This document shows positions 40,829 through 52,531 of a stretch of 64,000 nt of DNA, one piece after another. The notes beneath the pieces were generated by a model. The model was given only the letters and a program-made list of their open reading frames with translations, did no database searches and had not been told where the DNA came from. How positions within the stretch are numbered: position 1 is the stretch's first letter; the number at the start of each line of letters is the position of its first letter. Made by a program: the position numbers and the translations under genes. This stretch comes from Granulosicoccus antarcticus IMCC3135. Lineage in GTDB: Bacteria > Pseudomonadota > Gammaproteobacteria > Granulosicoccales > Granulosicoccaceae. Location: contig NZ_CP018632.1 in NCBI RefSeq assembly GCF_002215215.1, forward strand, positions 2,600,501 to 2,664,500, written 5' to 3'.

Positions 40829-43597
40829 CTACTTGACCAGGCTTTCCAGAGTTTCCAGCATGGGGGCAACGACAGGAGTAAGAACCGCGCCAACACCTTC
40901 TTTGTTGAGCTTGGTTTCAGCCAAAGGCTTGAGTCGAGCAATACCGTTGGTGAGGACCTTGTTCAAGGTGCTTTTCGCAGCTTCTGGTACATCGTTGTAA
41001 GAGGCCGCTACTTCTGACAAAGATGCACTGGCGCGTTCCAGACGAGGAAGTGCCATTTGGGCAGAAGCTTCGTCATCAACTCCGTCCAGAACGGTAGTCG
41101 TTGTACCAAATACGCCGCCCAATTTTCGGCTGATTCCCGCCAGGCTGAATGAGCCTCTTTCAGCTGTGGTCATTATGGCAGGAGCAGCTTCAGTTTCGGC
41201 AGTTGCCGCGTCAGTCGCTTCTTCAGTAGTTTCTGCAACAGCGTCAGTGGCTTCTTCAGTAGTTTCAGTTACTGCATCAGTCGCTTCGTCTGCAGTTTCA
41301 ACAACAGCGTCAGTCGCTTCTTCAGCAGTATCAGTTACTGCATCAGTAGCTTCTTCAGTAGTTTCTGCAACAGCGTCGGTAGCTTCTTCAGCAGTATCAG
41401 TTACTGCATCAGTGGCTTCTTCAGTAGTTTCGGCAACAGCGTCAGTCGCTTCTTCAGTAGTACCGGTTACTGCGTCGACCGCATCAGATGCCATTTCTTT
41501 TACTGCTTCAGTTGCATCAGCAGCTGTCTCAGCGACAGCATCAGTTGCACTGCCGACAGCGTCAGATACAGTTCCAGCAACGCCTGCAGCAATTCCAGTT
41601 ATCGTGGAAGTTGCATCAGTTGCATCAGTTGCATCTTCAGTCGCTTCGTCTGCAGTTTCAGCAACAGCATCAGTGGCTTCTTCAGTTGTTTCTGCAACAG
41701 CGTCGGTAGCTTCGTCTGCAGTTTCAGCAGCAGCGTCAGTCGCTTCTTCAGCAGTATCAGTTACTGCATCAGTGGCTTCTTCAGTAGTTTCAGCAGCAGC
41801 GTCAGTGGCTTCTTCAGTAGTCTCGGCAACAGCGTCAGTCGCTTCTTCAGCAGTATCAGTTACTGCATCAGTGGCTTCTTCAGTAGTTTCAGCAGCAGCG
41901 TCAGTCGCTTCGTCTGCAGTATCAGTTACAGCGTCAGTGGCTTCTTCAGTTGTTTCTGCAACAGCGTCGGTAGCTTCGTCTGCAGTTTCAGCAGCAGCGT
42001 CAGTCGCTTCTTCAGCAGTATCAGTTACTGCATCAGTGGCTTCTTCAGTAGTTTCTGCAACAGCGTCAGTGGCTTCTTCAGTAGTCTCGGCAACAGCGTC
42101 AGTCGCTTCGTCTGCAGTATCGGCAACAACGTCAGTGGCTTCTTCAGTAGTCTCGGCAACAGCGTCAGTCGCTTCGTCTGCAGTATCGGCAACAACGTCA
42201 GTGGCTTCTTCAGTAGTCTCGGCAACAGCGTCAGTCGATTCGTCTGCAGTATCGGCAACAACGTCAGTGGCTTCTTCAGTTGTTTCTGCAACAGCGTCGG
42301 TAGCTTCGTCTGCAGTATCAGTTACTGCGTCAGTAGCTTCTTCAGTAGTTTCTGCAACAGCGTCAGTCGCTTCGTCTGCAGTATCGGCAACAGCATCAGT
42401 GGCTTCTTCAGTTGTTTCTGCAACAGCGTCGGTAGCTTCGTCTGCAGTTTCAGCAGCAGCGTCAGTCGCTTCGTCTGCAGTATCAGTTACTGCATCAGTG
42501 GCTTCTTCAGTAGTCTCGGCAACAGCGTCAGTCGCTTCGTCTGCAGTGTCGGCAACAACGTCAGTGGCTTCTTCAGTAGTTTCAGCAGCAGCGTCAGTCG
42601 CTTCGTCTGCAGTATCAGTTACAGCGTCAGTGGCTTCTTCAGTTGTTTCTGCAACAGCGTCAGTGGCTTCTTCAGTTGTTTCTGCAACAGCGTCGGTAGC
42701 TTCTTCAGCAGTGTCAGTTACAGCGTCAGTGGCTTCTTCAGTTGTTTCTGCAACAGCGTCGGTAGCTTCTTCAGCAGTGTCAGTTACAGCGTCAGTAGCG
42801 TCTTCAGTAGTTTCTGCAACAGCGTCGGTAGCTTCTTCAGCAGTATCAGTTACGGCATCAGTGGCTTCTTCAGTAGTCTCGGCAACAGCGTCAGTAGCCT
42901 CTTCAGTAGTTTCAACAACCGCGTCGGTCGCTTCTTCAGCAGAGCCAGTCACTGCATCCGTGGCGTCAGCAGCAGCACCAGTAACCGCTTCAACTGCATC
43001 GGAAGCTGTTTCAGTTACTGCGCTGGTTGCATCAGTAGCCATCAGTGCTACAGCATCAGTCGCTTCCCCAGCTTTTTCAGTAACTGTCTCAGTTACTTCT
43101 CCAGCTGTTTCGGTAACCGCGTCAACCGCATCACCGATAACGGCGCCAGCTTTCTCGGCTGTTTCGACAACCGCATCCTTCGCATCGGAAGCCGTTTCGA
43201 CTACAGCGTCAGTTGCATTATCCGCAACTTCGACAGCAGATGCTGTTAAAGAGTCACTGTCGCTTGCGACTGTGTCAGCATCTGATTCAGTCTTTTCGAC
43301 CGCCTCGGTTGCCGTAGCAGGTGCCTCTGCGGTGACTGCTTCATCGGCTTCTTTGCCGCCGAACAGATTGATTACGATCCAGCCTATAACTAACAAAGCT
43401 GCTATCGGGAGTACTTTTTTCCACATCGGGGACTGATCTCCATTATTTCCAGAATTGCCACCTGAGCCACCGAAATTGCCGACAGCTTGCGTGGTGTTTG
43501 ATGCAGCAACGGTCGAACTAGTTGCTGAAGTTTTTACTTCGGTTGACGGATTCGACCCTTTTTCAGGGGGCGAATCCGAATTGTTCGAGTTGGCCAT
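40829..43597 (-). CDS. Membrane-anchored acidic protein of 11-residue repeats (LEA/hendecad-like)
   Basis: The product has 922 residues. The N-terminus is Asn/Ser/Gly-rich (1-57). One transmembrane helix follows at about 61-79 (KVLPIAALLVIGWIVINLF). Residues 128-211 are a degenerate repeat zone. Residues 212-651 hold 40 consecutive units of the form ATDAVAETTEE, strictly 11 residues long. Units of AETTEE type often alternate with TDTA(E/D)E type, giving a 22-residue super-repeat. Seven more units and a decayed eighth occupy 717-804. A C-terminal domain of 118 residues has mixed charge and helices (SFSLAGISRKLGG to LETLESLVK). The 11-residue period fits right-handed coiled coils or LEA-type amphipathic helices, but each unit carries about four acidic residues and no Lys. 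I know no named homologue. Confidence 0.85.
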   Translation of the reverse strand: MANSNNSDSPPEKGSNPSTEVKTSATSSTVAASNTTQAVGNFGGSGGNSGNNGDQSPMWKKVLPIAALLVIGWIVINLFGGKEADEAVTAEAPATATEAVEKTESDADTVASDSDSLTASAVEVADNATDAVVETASDAKDAVVETAEKAGAVIGDAVDAVTETAGEVTETVTEKAGEATDAVALMATDATSAVTETASDAVEAVTGAAADATDAVTGSAEEATDAVVETTEEATDAVAETTEEATDAVTDTAEEATDAVAETTEDATDAVTDTAEEATDAVAETTEEATDAVTDTAEEATDAVAETTEEATDAVAETTEEATDAVTDTADEATDAAAETTEEATDVVADTADEATDAVAETTEEATDAVTDTADEATDAAAETADEATDAVAETTEEATDAVADTADEATDAVAETTEEATDAVTDTADEATDAVAETTEEATDVVADTADESTDAVAETTEEATDVVADTADEATDAVAETTEEATDVVADTADEATDAVAETTEEATDAVAETTEEATDAVTDTAEEATDAAAETADEATDAVAETTEEATDAVTDTADEATDAAAETTEEATDAVTDTAEEATDAVAETTEEATDAAAETTEEATDAVTDTAEEATDAAAETADEATDAVAETTEEATDAVAETADEATEDATDATDATSTITGIAAGVAGTVSDAVGSATDAVAETAADATEAVKEMASDAVDAVTGTTEEATDAVAETTEEATDAVTDTAEEATDAVAETTEEATDAVTDTAEEATDAVVETADEATDAVTETTEEATDAVAETTEEATDAATAETEAAPAIMTTAERGSFSLAGISRKLGGVFGTTTTVLDGVDDEASAQMALPRLERASASLSEVAASYNDVPEAAKSTLNKVLTNGIARLKPLAETKLNKEGVGAVLTPVVAPMLETLESLVK
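41186..41449 (-). repeat. 33-bp tandem repeats, second block (eight units)
   Basis: Eight in-frame units of 33 bases encode residues 717-804 of the repeat protein; the last is degenerate (ATDAATAETEA). It is separated from the main block by about 195 bases of related but irregular sequence. Confidence 0.9.
41645..42964 (-). repeat. 33-bp tandem repeats, main block (40 units)
   Basis: Forty in-frame 33-base units encode residues 212-651 without any insertion or deletion. Many are identical or differ at one to three bases, mostly third positions. Alternation of two unit types makes a 66-base higher-order period. Because the unit has no stop in several frames on either strand, long spurious reading frames appear opposite the gene. 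Confidence 0.95.
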
Positions 43598-44184: not shown

Positions 44185-44853
44185 ATGCACTTGGACGACC
44201 TTATCTATAGTTTTCTACTGCAATCGGACTTCCCGAGAGCCGCGATCATTTTCGATCTGGACTTGCTTGGAGCCGCGGCGAAAGTGGGGACAGATATGCG
44301 GAGGCCCTCGTTTGTCATTGTTGACCCCGATACTGCCGAACTGCTCGCCATAATCGACGTTGTTGATGCCATCGATGGTGATGCCCTGCGAGAGATGTCC
44401 ACAGAGACTGGCGCTTACGCTTCACGGTTGGGAGGCAAGGCGATTCAGGGCTTTGTCATTCGAGTTGATGTTCGTGGAAGTACGGAAGATGAGCAGATCC
44501 AGTTCTATCGCGTATGGCCGAATAGCACGCTGCATCAGCTATCCAGCAAGTCATTCCCGGATCTCGGTTCGTTGCGCGTGGCGCGAAAGCTTGTCATTGA
44601 CAACATGCCCAAGCCTGTTATCAGAGCTGAGCCGATAATCATGGAAGAAGAATCCGATGACGATCAATCTGAGCCGCGCCCGGGGTGGGGCATGTACCTG
44701 CCTGCCTTTGTTTTGCTGGTTTTGATTATTGCAGATGGCCTTTCTAATGCAATTCGAGGCATATCGTTGCTGACGCTTTCGCAAAGTGTCCTGGCTTTCG
44801 GAGTCGCTTTTCTGCTTACCTTGCCAGCAGCCATTCGTTTTCTACGACGCTAG
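44185..44853 (+). CDS. Membrane protein with possibly inactive PD-(D/E)xK-like N-terminal domain
   Basis: The product has 222 residues. The N-terminal 145 residues read like the HsdR-N/restriction-endonuclease-like fold. A helical start is followed by RRPSFVIVDPDTAELLAIID, laid out as the usual RPDFVI...LLAIIEVK core, and then by FVIRVD and FYRVWP strands. The expected Asp, Glu and Lys are Ser, Asp and Val here, so cleavage activity is doubtful. An acidic linker (MEEESDDDQSEP) leads to two C-terminal transmembrane helices at about 171-189 and 198-216. I do not recognise a named family. The start ATG follows GGGCGG too closely for an ideal site, and no other start is better. Confidence 0.7.
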   Translation: MHLDDLIYSFLLQSDFPRAAIIFDLDLLGAAAKVGTDMRRPSFVIVDPDTAELLAIIDVVDAIDGDALREMSTETGAYASRLGGKAIQGFVIRVDVRGSTEDEQIQFYRVWPNSTLHQLSSKSFPDLGSLRVARKLVIDNMPKPVIRAEPIIMEEESDDDQSEPRPGWGMYLPAFVLLVLIIADGLSNAIRGISLLTLSQSVLAFGVAFLLTLPAAIRFLRR

Positions 44854-48754: not shown

Positions 48755-51700
48755 TTAGTCGTTGAGCTTCTCAGTCGTAGGTTTGACATTGCTTTCTATG
48801 GCTTCATCCGAACTCTGTGACGTATTGTCATTGACCGCCGCCTTCGTGGCTGCCTCAGAGTTACCAACCTCTACTGCCTTGCTGCCAAGGCTTGCAGGAA
48901 TGACATCAGGCACCCTCTTGGACGCTAGCGACAAGCCACCACCTGAGCCAGACTCATCCTTGTTGGCCAGGGATCGTACAGAGCTTTTCAGCTGGCTGGG
49001 TTGGCGCTGTGACACTTTGCTTTCTTCGGTTACAACGTGTGTCGTTGCTTCTGAAGCGCTCGTCTCAACAGGGCTGATATCGGCCGGCTCTGGTTGATGC
49101 TTTTCAGGCTTTGTACTTTCTTCCGCAGTAGTCGTTGTGTCGTTGGAGTCAGCTGTTTCTGCAGGGGTAGGGCTTTTTGCAGCTGCCGCTTTCTTGCTGT
49201 TGACTCGTTCACGACGTCGTCCGCCACCGCGGCGTTTCGGTTTGCCAGTGTCGTCGCTGTCGTCCGAAGGGTCTTCTGAATCAAGCTCGGAAATCGCTGC
49301 AGGCTCAGCTTCTGTAGCCTCTGCAGGTTCAACCGCAGCAGGCTCTTCTGCAGATTCGATCACAGCAGGCTTGGCTTCAGCAGTTTCAACTGGAGCTGGT
49401 ACTTCTGCAGGTTCGACCGCAGCAGCCTGAGCTTCAGCGGATTCAACTGGAGCAGGCTCTTCTGCAGGTTCAACCGCAGCAGCTTGAGCTTCAGCGGATT
49501 CAACTGGAGCAGGCTCTTCTACAGGTTCGAGCGCAGCCGGTTTAGCTTCAGCGGATTCAGTTGCAGCAGGCTCTTCTACAGGTTCGACCGTAGCAGGTTG
49601 AGCTTCAGCGGATTCAACGGGAGCAGGCTCTTCCGCAGATACGACCGCAGCAGGTTGAGCTTCAACGGATTCAACGAGAGCAGGTTCTTCCGCAGATTCA
49701 ATCGCAGCAGGTTCAGCTGGAGCAGTCTCAACTACTTCAGCTGCGCTAGCGTCCTCTGCCGTGTCATTGGCAGCTGCTTTTGAAGAACGTCTGCGACCTT
49801 TCTGTCGAGAGCTCTTTTGCCTATCGGTTGGCGAAGCCTCGGAAGTGTCAGATGTTTCCGATGTTTCCGATGTTTCCGATGTGCTTTCCGCAGACGTATC
49901 GTTAGCAGGCTCTTCGGATGAGGCAATCACCTCATTTGGAGCATCGACAACAGCGGTTGCTGTCGTAATGGCAGCTTTTTCGCCGACTGATTCAGCTTTT
50001 TCTGTGGATTCCGACATCGCAGCAGAAGCATCATCAATTGAGACAGCTTCGGCGTTATTGCCCTTTGCGTCAGCGTTGTCAGCTTGTTGATGCTCGCCAG
50101 TGGCGTTAGCAGATGGTTCTACTGTTGCATCGGCATCGTTTGCCGCTGATTCTTTGATTTCACCATTTTCATCACGCTCGTTGGTCTTTCCTCGTCCTCG
50201 ACCACCACGACGTCGTCCACCACGTCGTCCGCGTGTGCGACCGCCTTCTTCCGAATTAGCAGGCTGTTCGTTGGCCGGCCCATCTGCCGTCGTTGTTGGT
50301 GCTGATTCCGCATCGATAACAACGGTGTCGGAATTTTCAGGTGTTGTCTGTTCGACTTTTCGTTTGGAGCGTCGTCCGTTGGCTGATCGCTTGTTGTTTT
50401 CTGGTTTGCCAGCGTTCGCATCAGTGGCTTCGCCTTCACCGTCAACAGCGATAGGCAGTTCCTCAGCATTGGCGCTGTTCTCTTGCTTGCGGCCACGACC
50501 ACGTCCACGAGGATTCTTGCGCTCTCCTTCTGGGGCTTCTGCGTTCTTGGCACGTCGCTGGTTGTTGCGTCCGCCACGAGGAGACTCGTTGCTTGTTTCG
50601 CCGTTTTCGCCGTTTTCGCCGTTTTCGCCGTCAGCTTGCTTGGAACGTCCACGTCCATTGCGGTTGCCGGAACGTGATCCGCGTTTCTGGCCTCGCGATT
50701 CGTCATCCGAATTACCGTTACGGCGAGCATTCGTATTGGCCGATTTCGAGCCTGAAGCGTTCTGTTCAGTGGTGCTATCAGCTGACGACTCATTGCTTGA
50801 TGAGCTGGCTCCAAACAGGGAAGTGACAGCACCTAGTATCCGTCTGAAGCCGCCTGGTCCCTGGACGGGGCCAGGGACGACAGCTTGTTGTTGGAGTCGG
50901 GCAGGGGTGGGGGCTGGGGCCAGAGGGCTGACCGCGCTAACTGCTGCGGTTTCCGGCTTTTTCTCTTCTCGCGCTTCTTGCTGTGCGGAGTAAGTTTCGG
51001 TGTTGTCAGATGCCAGTTCGTAGCTCTTCTTTGTCACCATGTCGTGGTCCGCTTCAGACATGCGGATACGTTCGATGGTGTAGTTCGGAGTTTCAAGAGT
51101 CGGGTTGGCAACAATCAGCAGGACGACATTGTTACGAGCCTCGATCTCGGTAATGCTCTGACGTTTCTCATTGAGCAAATAGGTCGCGACCTCTACAGGA
51201 ACATCCGCCATGACGCGTCCCGTATTGTCCTTCATCGCATCTTCTTCCACCAGTCGCAGAATGGACAGAGCGGTTGATTCGATACCACGAATGGTGCCGT
51301 GGCCCTGGCAACGAGGGCAGACGTTTTCGGAGGATTCTCCCAGTGACGGGCGTAAACGCTGTCTGGACATTTCCAACAGCCCGAACTTCGAAATTCGGCC
51401 TATTTGCACACGGGCACGGTCTTGCTTGAGAGCATCGCGTAGGCGGTTTTCCACGGCGCGCTGGTGCTTGGAGTCCATCATGTCGATGAAATCGATGACA
51501 ACCAGGCCGCCCAGGTCGCGCAGTCGCAATTGACGGGCGACTTCATCGGCAGCTTCCAGGTTGGTGTTGGTCGCTGTCTCTTCTATATCTGATCCCTTGG
51601 TGGCTCGTGCCGAGTTGATGTCGATGGACACCAGAGCTTCGGTGTGATCGATGACAAGAGCACCGCCGGAGGGCAGGCGAACTTCACGACGAAATGCCGA

Positions 51701-52531
51701 TTCGATCTGGGATTCAACCTGGTAGCGATTGAACAACGGGACATCGTCCTGGTACATCTTGAGCTTGCGTTCGTTCTGCGGCATGTACAACCGAATGAAC
51801 TCTGCTGCCTGCTCATAAGTGGTCGCTTCGTCAGCGATGATTTCACCGATGTCGCCGCGAAAATAGTCACGCAGACCGCGCACGATGATGTTGCTTTCCT
51901 GATAGATCAGAAAGGGGGCTTTGTTCTCACCAGCAGCTTCTTGAATGGCTTTCCAGATGGCTGCCTGATAATCAAGATCCCATTGCAGTTCTTCAGTGGT
52001 TCGTCCGATACCGGCAGTACGCACGATAGTACCCATGCCGGCCGGGACTTCCACATCGGACATGGCAGCCTTCAGCTCGGAGCGGTCGTCTCCTTCGATA
52101 CGACGTGAAACACCGCCAGCACGGGGGTTGTTAGGCATCAAAACGAGAAATCGGCCAGCCAGGCTGATGAAGGTCGTCAGGGCAGCGCCTTTATTGCTGC
52201 GCTCTTCCTTCTCGATCTGAACAACGATCTCTTGGCCTTCCTTGATGCAATCACGAATGCTGGGGCGTCCGCCTTCAGTCTTCTTGTTGCTACCGTTCAG
52301 GAACTCTTTGGCAATTTCCTTGAAAGGCAGGAAGCCGTGACGATCAGCACCATAGTCTACAAAGACCGCTTCGAGGCTGGGCTCGACGCGAGTGATTTTG
52401 GCTTTATAGATATTTGATTTGCGTTGTTCGCGGGATTTGTGCTCAATATCGAGATCGACTAGTCGTTGACCATCGACGATGGCAACACGCAACTCCTCTG
52501 AGTGAGTTGCGTTGATCAACATTCTTTTCAT
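48755..52531 (-). CDS. rne: Ribonuclease E
   Basis: The 1258-residue endoribonuclease is the scaffold of the RNA degradosome. The catalytic half starts [17 protein letters not shown] and has the S1 domain ([24 protein letters not shown]) and the 5'-sensor/RNase H-like region. The catalytic Asp residues lie in [16 protein letters not shown] and [12 protein letters not shown], and the zinc link is CPRCQGHG. After about residue 530 the tail is disordered: Arg/Gly-rich patches ([16 protein letters not shown]), short repeats and a run of six 19-residue Glu/Pro/Ala units at 49349-49690. E. coli Rne has 1061 residues, so the tail is longer. rluC is divergent, as in many gammaproteobacteria, with a long shared leader. 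Confidence 0.96.
49349..49690 (-). repeat. Six 57-bp repeats in the RNase E tail
   Basis: Six consecutive units of 19 residues, pattern E-(E/V)-P-A-x-V-E-S-(A/V)-E-A-(Q/K)-x-A-x-(V/L/I)-E-(P/S)-(A/V), run without gaps. Units four and five are identical in protein. The segment is strongly acidic and proline-rich. Confidence 0.88.
49851..49877 (-). repeat. Three 9-bp repeats (Ser-Glu-Thr) in rne
   Basis: The unit gatgtttcc (plus strand) occurs three times in a row and encodes repeated Ser-Glu-Thr in the disordered tail. Confidence 0.9.
50600..50626 (-). repeat. Three 9-bp repeats (Gly-Glu-Asn) in rne
   Basis: The unit gccgttttc (plus strand) occurs three times in a row and encodes repeated Gly-Glu-Asn, next to an Arg-rich patch of the tail. 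Confidence 0.9.

Follow-up and report, generated by a model that had tools for sequence, protein, structure and literature searches.

We find that the window, by which we mean the whole stretch of 64,000 nucleotides analysed, from a marine bacterium, encodes a 922-residue protein in which a long, acidic repeat with a period of 11 residues separates a single transmembrane (TM) helix from a C-terminal domain (Cdom), and that this Cdom is a separate conserved domain for which neither Pfam nor NCBIfam holds a model. With moderate confidence, we read the protein as an inner-membrane-anchored rod or tether that would present the Cdom to the wall or to another periplasmic partner. It is from sequence that we take the anatomy, the relatives with the domain orders they show, the conservation of the Cdom, the helical phase and the protein-level constraint, and our confidence in the anatomy is much higher than in the functional reading. 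An earlier note on this DNA had recognised the repeat, the anchor and the charge, all of which stand, but it missed the Cdom, an ancestry involving the domain DUF937, the paralogues, and the syntenic relatives that carry different units.

The coding sequence (40829..43597, minus strand, as are all parts given here) runs for 922 aa from an ATG start, according to the list of open reading frames and the translation, and its N-terminus resembles by eye those of the relatives L036, L037 and L039. Residues 1-61 (43415..43597) form a short Ser/Asn/Gly-rich tail, probably cytoplasmic, at the position where relatives have DUF937, judging from L051. A single TM core is predicted at aa 62-76 (43370..43414), in agreement with the one anchor described before. 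The Lys pair immediately preceding it, and the one Lys and then acids that follow, suggest an N-in, C-out topology, and a periplasmic C-terminal part is likewise suggested by an OmpA domain at the matching place in relatives, by the lipobox of L078 and by the signal peptide of L055 (both read by eye). Next comes a linker of 734 residues with a net charge of -230 (aa 77-810, 41168..43369), probably periplasmic, which contains 40 gapless 11-residue units with the consensus EATDAVAETTE (aa 211-650, 41648..42967), a 65-residue irregular interruption (aa 651-715, 41453..41647) and eight more 11-residue units (aa 716-803, 41189..41452); TRF reports the array at 41208-42939, with a period of 66 and a score of 1628. 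The conserved four-helix Cdom makes up the last 112 residues (aa 811-922, 40832..41167). The description of the protein as built of about 48 repeats therefore holds for the 40 + 8 in-register units of 33 bp, but not for aa 811-922.

Since the host genome (7.78 Mb) is one contig, the worry that the repeat count is an assembly artefact is weakened. Among the 60 family members extracted, 45 are complete at the 5' end and 15, from fragmented assemblies, reach a contig end at their 5' side; 13 of these 15 break before any TM helix, i.e. inside the linker. An antisense gene over the array (plus-strand ORF 41166-43436, 756 aa) was set aside as a probable by-product, because the unit length is a multiple of three and stop codons are absent from three of the six frames across the array, counting the coding frame. 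As to a mobile origin, phage and plasmid collections gave no match.

The computed net charge of the whole protein, -231, goes beyond the -150 that had been predicted, and yet the units are not almost wholly acidic, as had been stated: acidic residues make up 36% of the main array, and the remainder is mostly Ala, Thr and Val. From aa 176 to 699 (524 residues) there is no Lys, Arg, His or Pro at all. We tabulated 47 units (39 + 8, leaving out the unit at aa 211), which fall into 14 types at the amino-acid level and 28 at the DNA level, with a mean DNA identity of 0.81. Unit positions 1, 4, 8 and 11 are acidic in nearly all units, with Ala, Val and Thr nearly everywhere else, and Thr occupies position 3 in 47 and position 9 in 46 of the 47. 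Placed on an 11/3 helical wheel, the acidic positions form a single arc (262-360 degrees), which bears out the period-11 repeat proposed earlier and marks it as amphipathic. The 22-residue alternation is confirmed as well, both by a linker self-identity of 0.66 at lag 22 (z = 31.9 against shuffles) and by a mean DNA identity between units of 0.773 at lag 1 versus 0.851 at lag 2. An AlphaFold2 (AF2) model of aa 57-330 consists of two long helices, with block pLDDT values of 75-89 over the regular units (one sequence, pTM 0.33); because AF2 tends to render such repeats as helix, this single-sequence model is weak support for a helical repeat. Another acidic repeat lies elsewhere in the window, in the C-terminal region of RNase E (48755-52531, named by eye): a Pro-containing unit of 57 bp (19 residues) at 49320-49718 on the minus strand, which shows no amphipathicity at 98 degrees, 993 of 1000 shuffles equalling or exceeding its moment.

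A set of 20 loci shares flanking genes with the window, among them genes for an aminotransferase, an SMP-30-like protein and an ArsR-methyltransferase. Synteny was defined through BLAST groups of neighbouring ORFs, and for L058 and L065 it rests on one shared neighbour. As these loci are related to each other, they do not count as 20 independent tests; furthermore, eight of them are truncated on their 5' side where a contig ends, seven of these inside the linker. The divergent neighbour at 44185-44853 (plus strand, 222 aa), kept at 10 of the loci, is matched by neither Pfam nor NCBIfam at E values up to 1. Complete syntenic linkers range from 49 aa in L071, which belongs to another genus and has DUF937, to 766 aa in L037, and their 11-mers differ as well, e.g. 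EATDAVAETTE, EEMAEDATDAT, AGDAADAATDA and EAAAEGEAAVE. The net charge is negative in the other 19 syntenic linkers too, from -6 (L071) to -231.

What is mostly held at this locus is the helical phase. The hydrophobic moment at 98.18 degrees beats 1000 of 1000 shuffles in 18 of the 20 syntenic linkers, the observed moment being reached by 3 shuffles of 1000 in L051 and by 997 in L050. The moment peaks at 97-99 degrees in 17 of the 20; the exceptions, L050, L051 and L052, come from the same locus, have Gly-containing units and show no peak near 98 degrees. L066, with weak periodicity and with Lys, still peaks at 98 degrees. A finer measurement on eight linkers gave 98.5-99 degrees per residue, which is an 11/3 phase. 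Dominant periods among 26 periodic linkers are 22 (nine linkers), 11 (six), 29 (two) and 7 (one), with 6, 12, 15, 24 or 30 in the other eight. For these 26 we also applied a stricter null, which permutes unit columns and so keeps both repeat and composition. Fourteen of them beat all 1000 draws, the window linker among them (0 of 1000 draws reach its moment), and 16 lie at a fraction of 0.006 or less; L042, L044, L045 and L078 lie at 0.019-0.049, and L034, L051, L052, L054, L080 and L085 are not above this null. Cytoplasmic spacers between DUF937 and the TM helix, which have fewer acids (6-18%), peak at 97-101 degrees in 12 of 13 cases.

The Cdom is the part by which the family can be followed. 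A 50-row profile of 110 positions finds it in 44 of the order's 48 genomes, and the host genome has three Cdom genes. Since the window sequence is itself a row of this profile, a search with the single window Cdom was used as an independent test of membership; it matched 32 of 57 genomes, namely 32 of the 36 in its own family and none of the 21 outside. When a sample of the class was searched, 8 of 369 matched, with only G232 and G335 convincing outside the family; the marginal matches in G217, G363 and G381, by eye chemoreceptors or coiled-coil membrane proteins, were dropped as relatives. In a sample of the phylum 7 of 349 matched, and five of these lie beyond the class. At E up to 0.01, any single Pfam or NCBIfam model matches at most one of the 50 Cdom members. 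The AlphaFold2 model is a four-helix bundle with a pLDDT of 89.6, for which structure searches gave a best Foldseek E of 0.14 and VIA Z values up to 9.8, a range common for helical bundles. Sequence comparison with solved structures produced 24 weak matches up to E = 1 (best 4.1e-4). These do not make up a consistent family; designed coiled coils, syntaxins, apolipoprotein A-IV and the designed ice-binding TIP-99a are among them.

The Cdom tree is built on few columns, 17 of its 57 inner branches are open, and in it the syntenic loci do not form one clade. Class C paralogues (such as L034, L046 and L055) join the Cdom to a linker of quite another kind, bearing PTDPVTGATIY-like motifs, and the Cdom thus does not need an 11/3 helix. 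Such repeated motifs were seen on the acidic linkers of L034, L044, L046, L055, L057 and L162; in the tree, L042 and L045 fall together with L044, and the motif is absent from their inspected parts. A short-linker paralogue (L035 and 11 other loci) adjoins a murQ-like gene, often with nagK/nagA-like genes (all by eye). As this murQ-like gene is convergent and not in an operon with the paralogue, it is weak evidence for a link to the wall.

The order DUF937 - TM - linker - Cdom is found in 25 of the 45 family members that are complete at the 5' end, where DUF937 was called from an N-terminal segment of at least 213 residues with a match to PF06078 at its place. The same order occurs in G335 and G232, from another family of the class; L096 and L097, also from another family of the class, carry DUF937 and Cdom, and outside the class the full order is seen in 6 of 6 loci from five genomes. 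DUF937 - TM - short linker - Cdom is therefore probably the old form. Within the family, 45 of 48 genomes have DUF937, and three syntenic relatives (L051, L053 and L071) carry it, whereas the window protein has no PF06078 match in Pfam up to E = 1, and its host genome none to DUF937 at E up to 0.001, though three Cdom genes were kept. In the L083 region (G016:C105), DUF937 lies in a frame of its own just upstream of a TM-Cdom frame, as if the gene had been split. One DUF937 sequence compared with the PDB gave only two weak, unrelated matches, from which the absence of any DUF937 structure does not follow. YidB is linked with DUF937 by annotation in a passage of one paper; among the literature matches listed, no title contains 'DUF937' or 'YidB', and passages of two of the papers name them in gene tables only.

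Elsewhere, DUF937 is joined to a different end. The arrangement DUF937 - TM - rod - OmpA is seen both within the taxonomic order (L150 and L152) and beyond it (L138). L154, L155 and L156 also end in OmpA, with a weak DUF937 in one of two Pfam scans, and in L151 an OmpA-like end was read by eye, without a Pfam scan. As a group, L150-L156 (genus g4; L154 from genus g5) are giant DUF937 proteins with frames of 974-1692 aa and very long coiled-coil rods, OmpA being found in the five scanned and L153 being cut at a contig end. The rods of L150-L152 and L154-L156 measure 534-1252 residues by a crude cut, and none of these six peaks at 98-99 degrees. PF00691 (OmpA) is absent among the Pfam matches of the window protein.

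How, then, might the protein work? Our inferences here concern the direction of the domain changes, the topology, the formation of a helix in vivo, the tethering and the partner. The protein would descend from a DUF937 - TM - short linker - Cdom form, having lost DUF937 and lengthened its linker by tandem expansion. Its periplasmic part would be a long alpha-helix, polyanionic and amphipathic with a period of 11, anchored by the one TM helix and carrying the Cdom at its far end. At 0.15 nm per residue the linker would measure about 110 nm as a straight helix (34-115 nm in the 12 syntenic genes with complete linkers, the window's included and L071 excluded), and the periplasm is several times narrower than that. 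An upright rod does not fit this width, and a ruler spanning the periplasm was rejected because linker length is too variable. The helix would instead lie along the envelope, fold back or pack with its neighbours via the Ala/Val/Thr face, while the acidic face would remain in solvent. Since OmpA, a peptidoglycan-binding type of end, stands in relatives at the place of the Cdom, the wall is the first candidate partner. A bolder version, which we think unlikely, holds that an untwisted (11/3), length-tunable polyanionic helix packs sideways into a periplasmic lattice or filament and so sets periplasmic fixed charge and mechanics; the Cdom would then be a new wall- or outer-membrane-binding module, and selection would hold the phase while sequence and length drift.

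A different emphasis would place the function in the charge itself. As a periplasmic polyanion, the protein would use some 230 fixed negative charges to hold counter-ions, divalent cations and water, with helix geometry being secondary, much as if it were a protein counterpart of the anionic periplasmic glucans. The 734 linker residues with their long stretch devoid of Lys, Arg, His and Pro would fit this well, as would the negative charge of the other syntenic linkers, and the fact that Gly-rich and class C linkers of other geometry are acidic too. However, charge alone explains neither why the 11/3 phase is mostly retained through turnover of the units nor why the Cdom is, and the short linker of L071, taken as the old form, reaches only -6. 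As such, we consider this account fairly unlikely.

The array might also lack a function of its own, slippage having lengthened a linker in which this is tolerated. Length and units do vary between species, exact DNA repeats of at least 110 nt are present in the array, and the amphipathicity could come in part from an amphipathic founder unit. Moreover, homogenisation within the array, as suspected earlier, is evident: the best DNA match of 66 linker stretches lies in the own gene for 47 and in another species' gene for 16, with 3 ties, and at 14 of 16 loci the stretches are closer to their own gene than to those of other species, by a narrow margin at L058, the two loci where this does not hold being L065 and L066. 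Neutral expansion would not, however, account for a pN/pS of 0.22 among 46 units, for amphipathicity exceeding a null that keeps periodicity and composition, or for the 98-degree phase of L066, which lacks a strong repeat; in addition, the acidic RNase E repeat of the same window has no such phase. Taken together, the pN/pS, the own-gene similarity, the helical phase retained across loci and the results of the stricter null show, at the level of sequence comparison, protein-level constraint along with homogenisation of the repeats. Neutral expansion, already disfavoured, is thus unlikely to be the explanation.

Could the helix coat a membrane or granule through its Ala/Val/Thr face, in the manner of apolipoproteins, perilipins or phasins? 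The whole protein scores above the Pfam cut-off for Apolipoprotein (PF01442, 4.2e-29, 102 bits against a cut-off of 90), Phasin_2 (1.2e-11) and Senescence (1.5e-8), and for a 220-aa stretch the Apolipoprotein score is higher forward than reversed (66.5 vs 47.4 bits, 19 bits apart). Yet all three models are also matched by the reversed stretch, and none is matched up to E = 1 once the columns are permuted, which indicates that the signal is mostly repeat pattern. Apolipoprotein kinship is doubtful on these grounds; kinship with Senescence was rejected by the same controls, and that with Phasin (PF09361) because for this model the reversed stretch gives no lower a score than the forward one (34.9 and 31.4 bits). 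With no basic residue over 524 residues and an apolar face of just Ala, Val and Thr, a surface-binding helix of this kind is improbable. Least probable of all is an ice-binding or desiccation helix, untwisted at 11/3 with rows of Thr, Ala and Val in resemblance to the type I antifreeze proteins: the Thr at unit positions 3 and 9 and the pattern TxxxAxxx[AV], raised in the window linker (52 observed vs 18.3 expected), L036 (30 vs 16.7), L037 (30 vs 16.9), L058 (19 vs 12.4) and L053 (16 vs 10.1), would speak for it, but the pattern falls below expectation in L040 (0 vs 3.4), L048 (1 vs 7.7) and L060 (3 vs 7.3), so that ice binding is not the family's shared role, and the inferred site is the periplasm.

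Returning to the rod or tether that we prefer, two aspects give it wider interest. One is a conserved domain that accompanies DUF937 and for which Pfam and NCBIfam have no model. The other is a single locus with rods of 49 to 766 residues, in which sequence turns over while phase is mostly held; this amounts to a natural experiment, and makes directly testable what such a rod must conserve, be it length, charge or geometry.

Among known systems, the group 3 LEA proteins named in the earlier note are alike in period and amphipathicity, but they carry basic residues within each 11-mer, whereas the window protein lacks Lys and Arg over a run of 524 residues, is membrane-anchored and bears an end domain; no LEA family is among the six Pfam families listed up to E = 1, and this kinship was dropped. 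Hendecad coiled coils have an 11/3 phase, which the window linker matches, although its core would consist of Ala, Val and Thr only; literature combining 'hendecad' and 'periplasm', judged by its listing, contains none on such a protein. With stand-alone DUF937 proteins of the YidB type, 24 of 30 class matches to which lie in open frames of only 183-249 aa, the DUF937 forms of the Cdom family share that domain. TolA has a like layout of inner-membrane anchor, long periplasmic helix and C-terminal domain, while the repeat of the Cdom family is acidic, has a period of 11 and extends to 766 residues. The DUF937 - TM - rod - OmpA proteins (L138, L150 and L152) are alike in their one TM helix, long rod and end domain and, like relatives of the window protein, carry DUF937 ahead of the TM helix; they differ in ending in OmpA and not in the Cdom, and the window protein itself lacks DUF937. 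By its layout, the window protein is of this membrane-anchored rod-with-end-domain kind, with a conserved end domain that has yet to be named.
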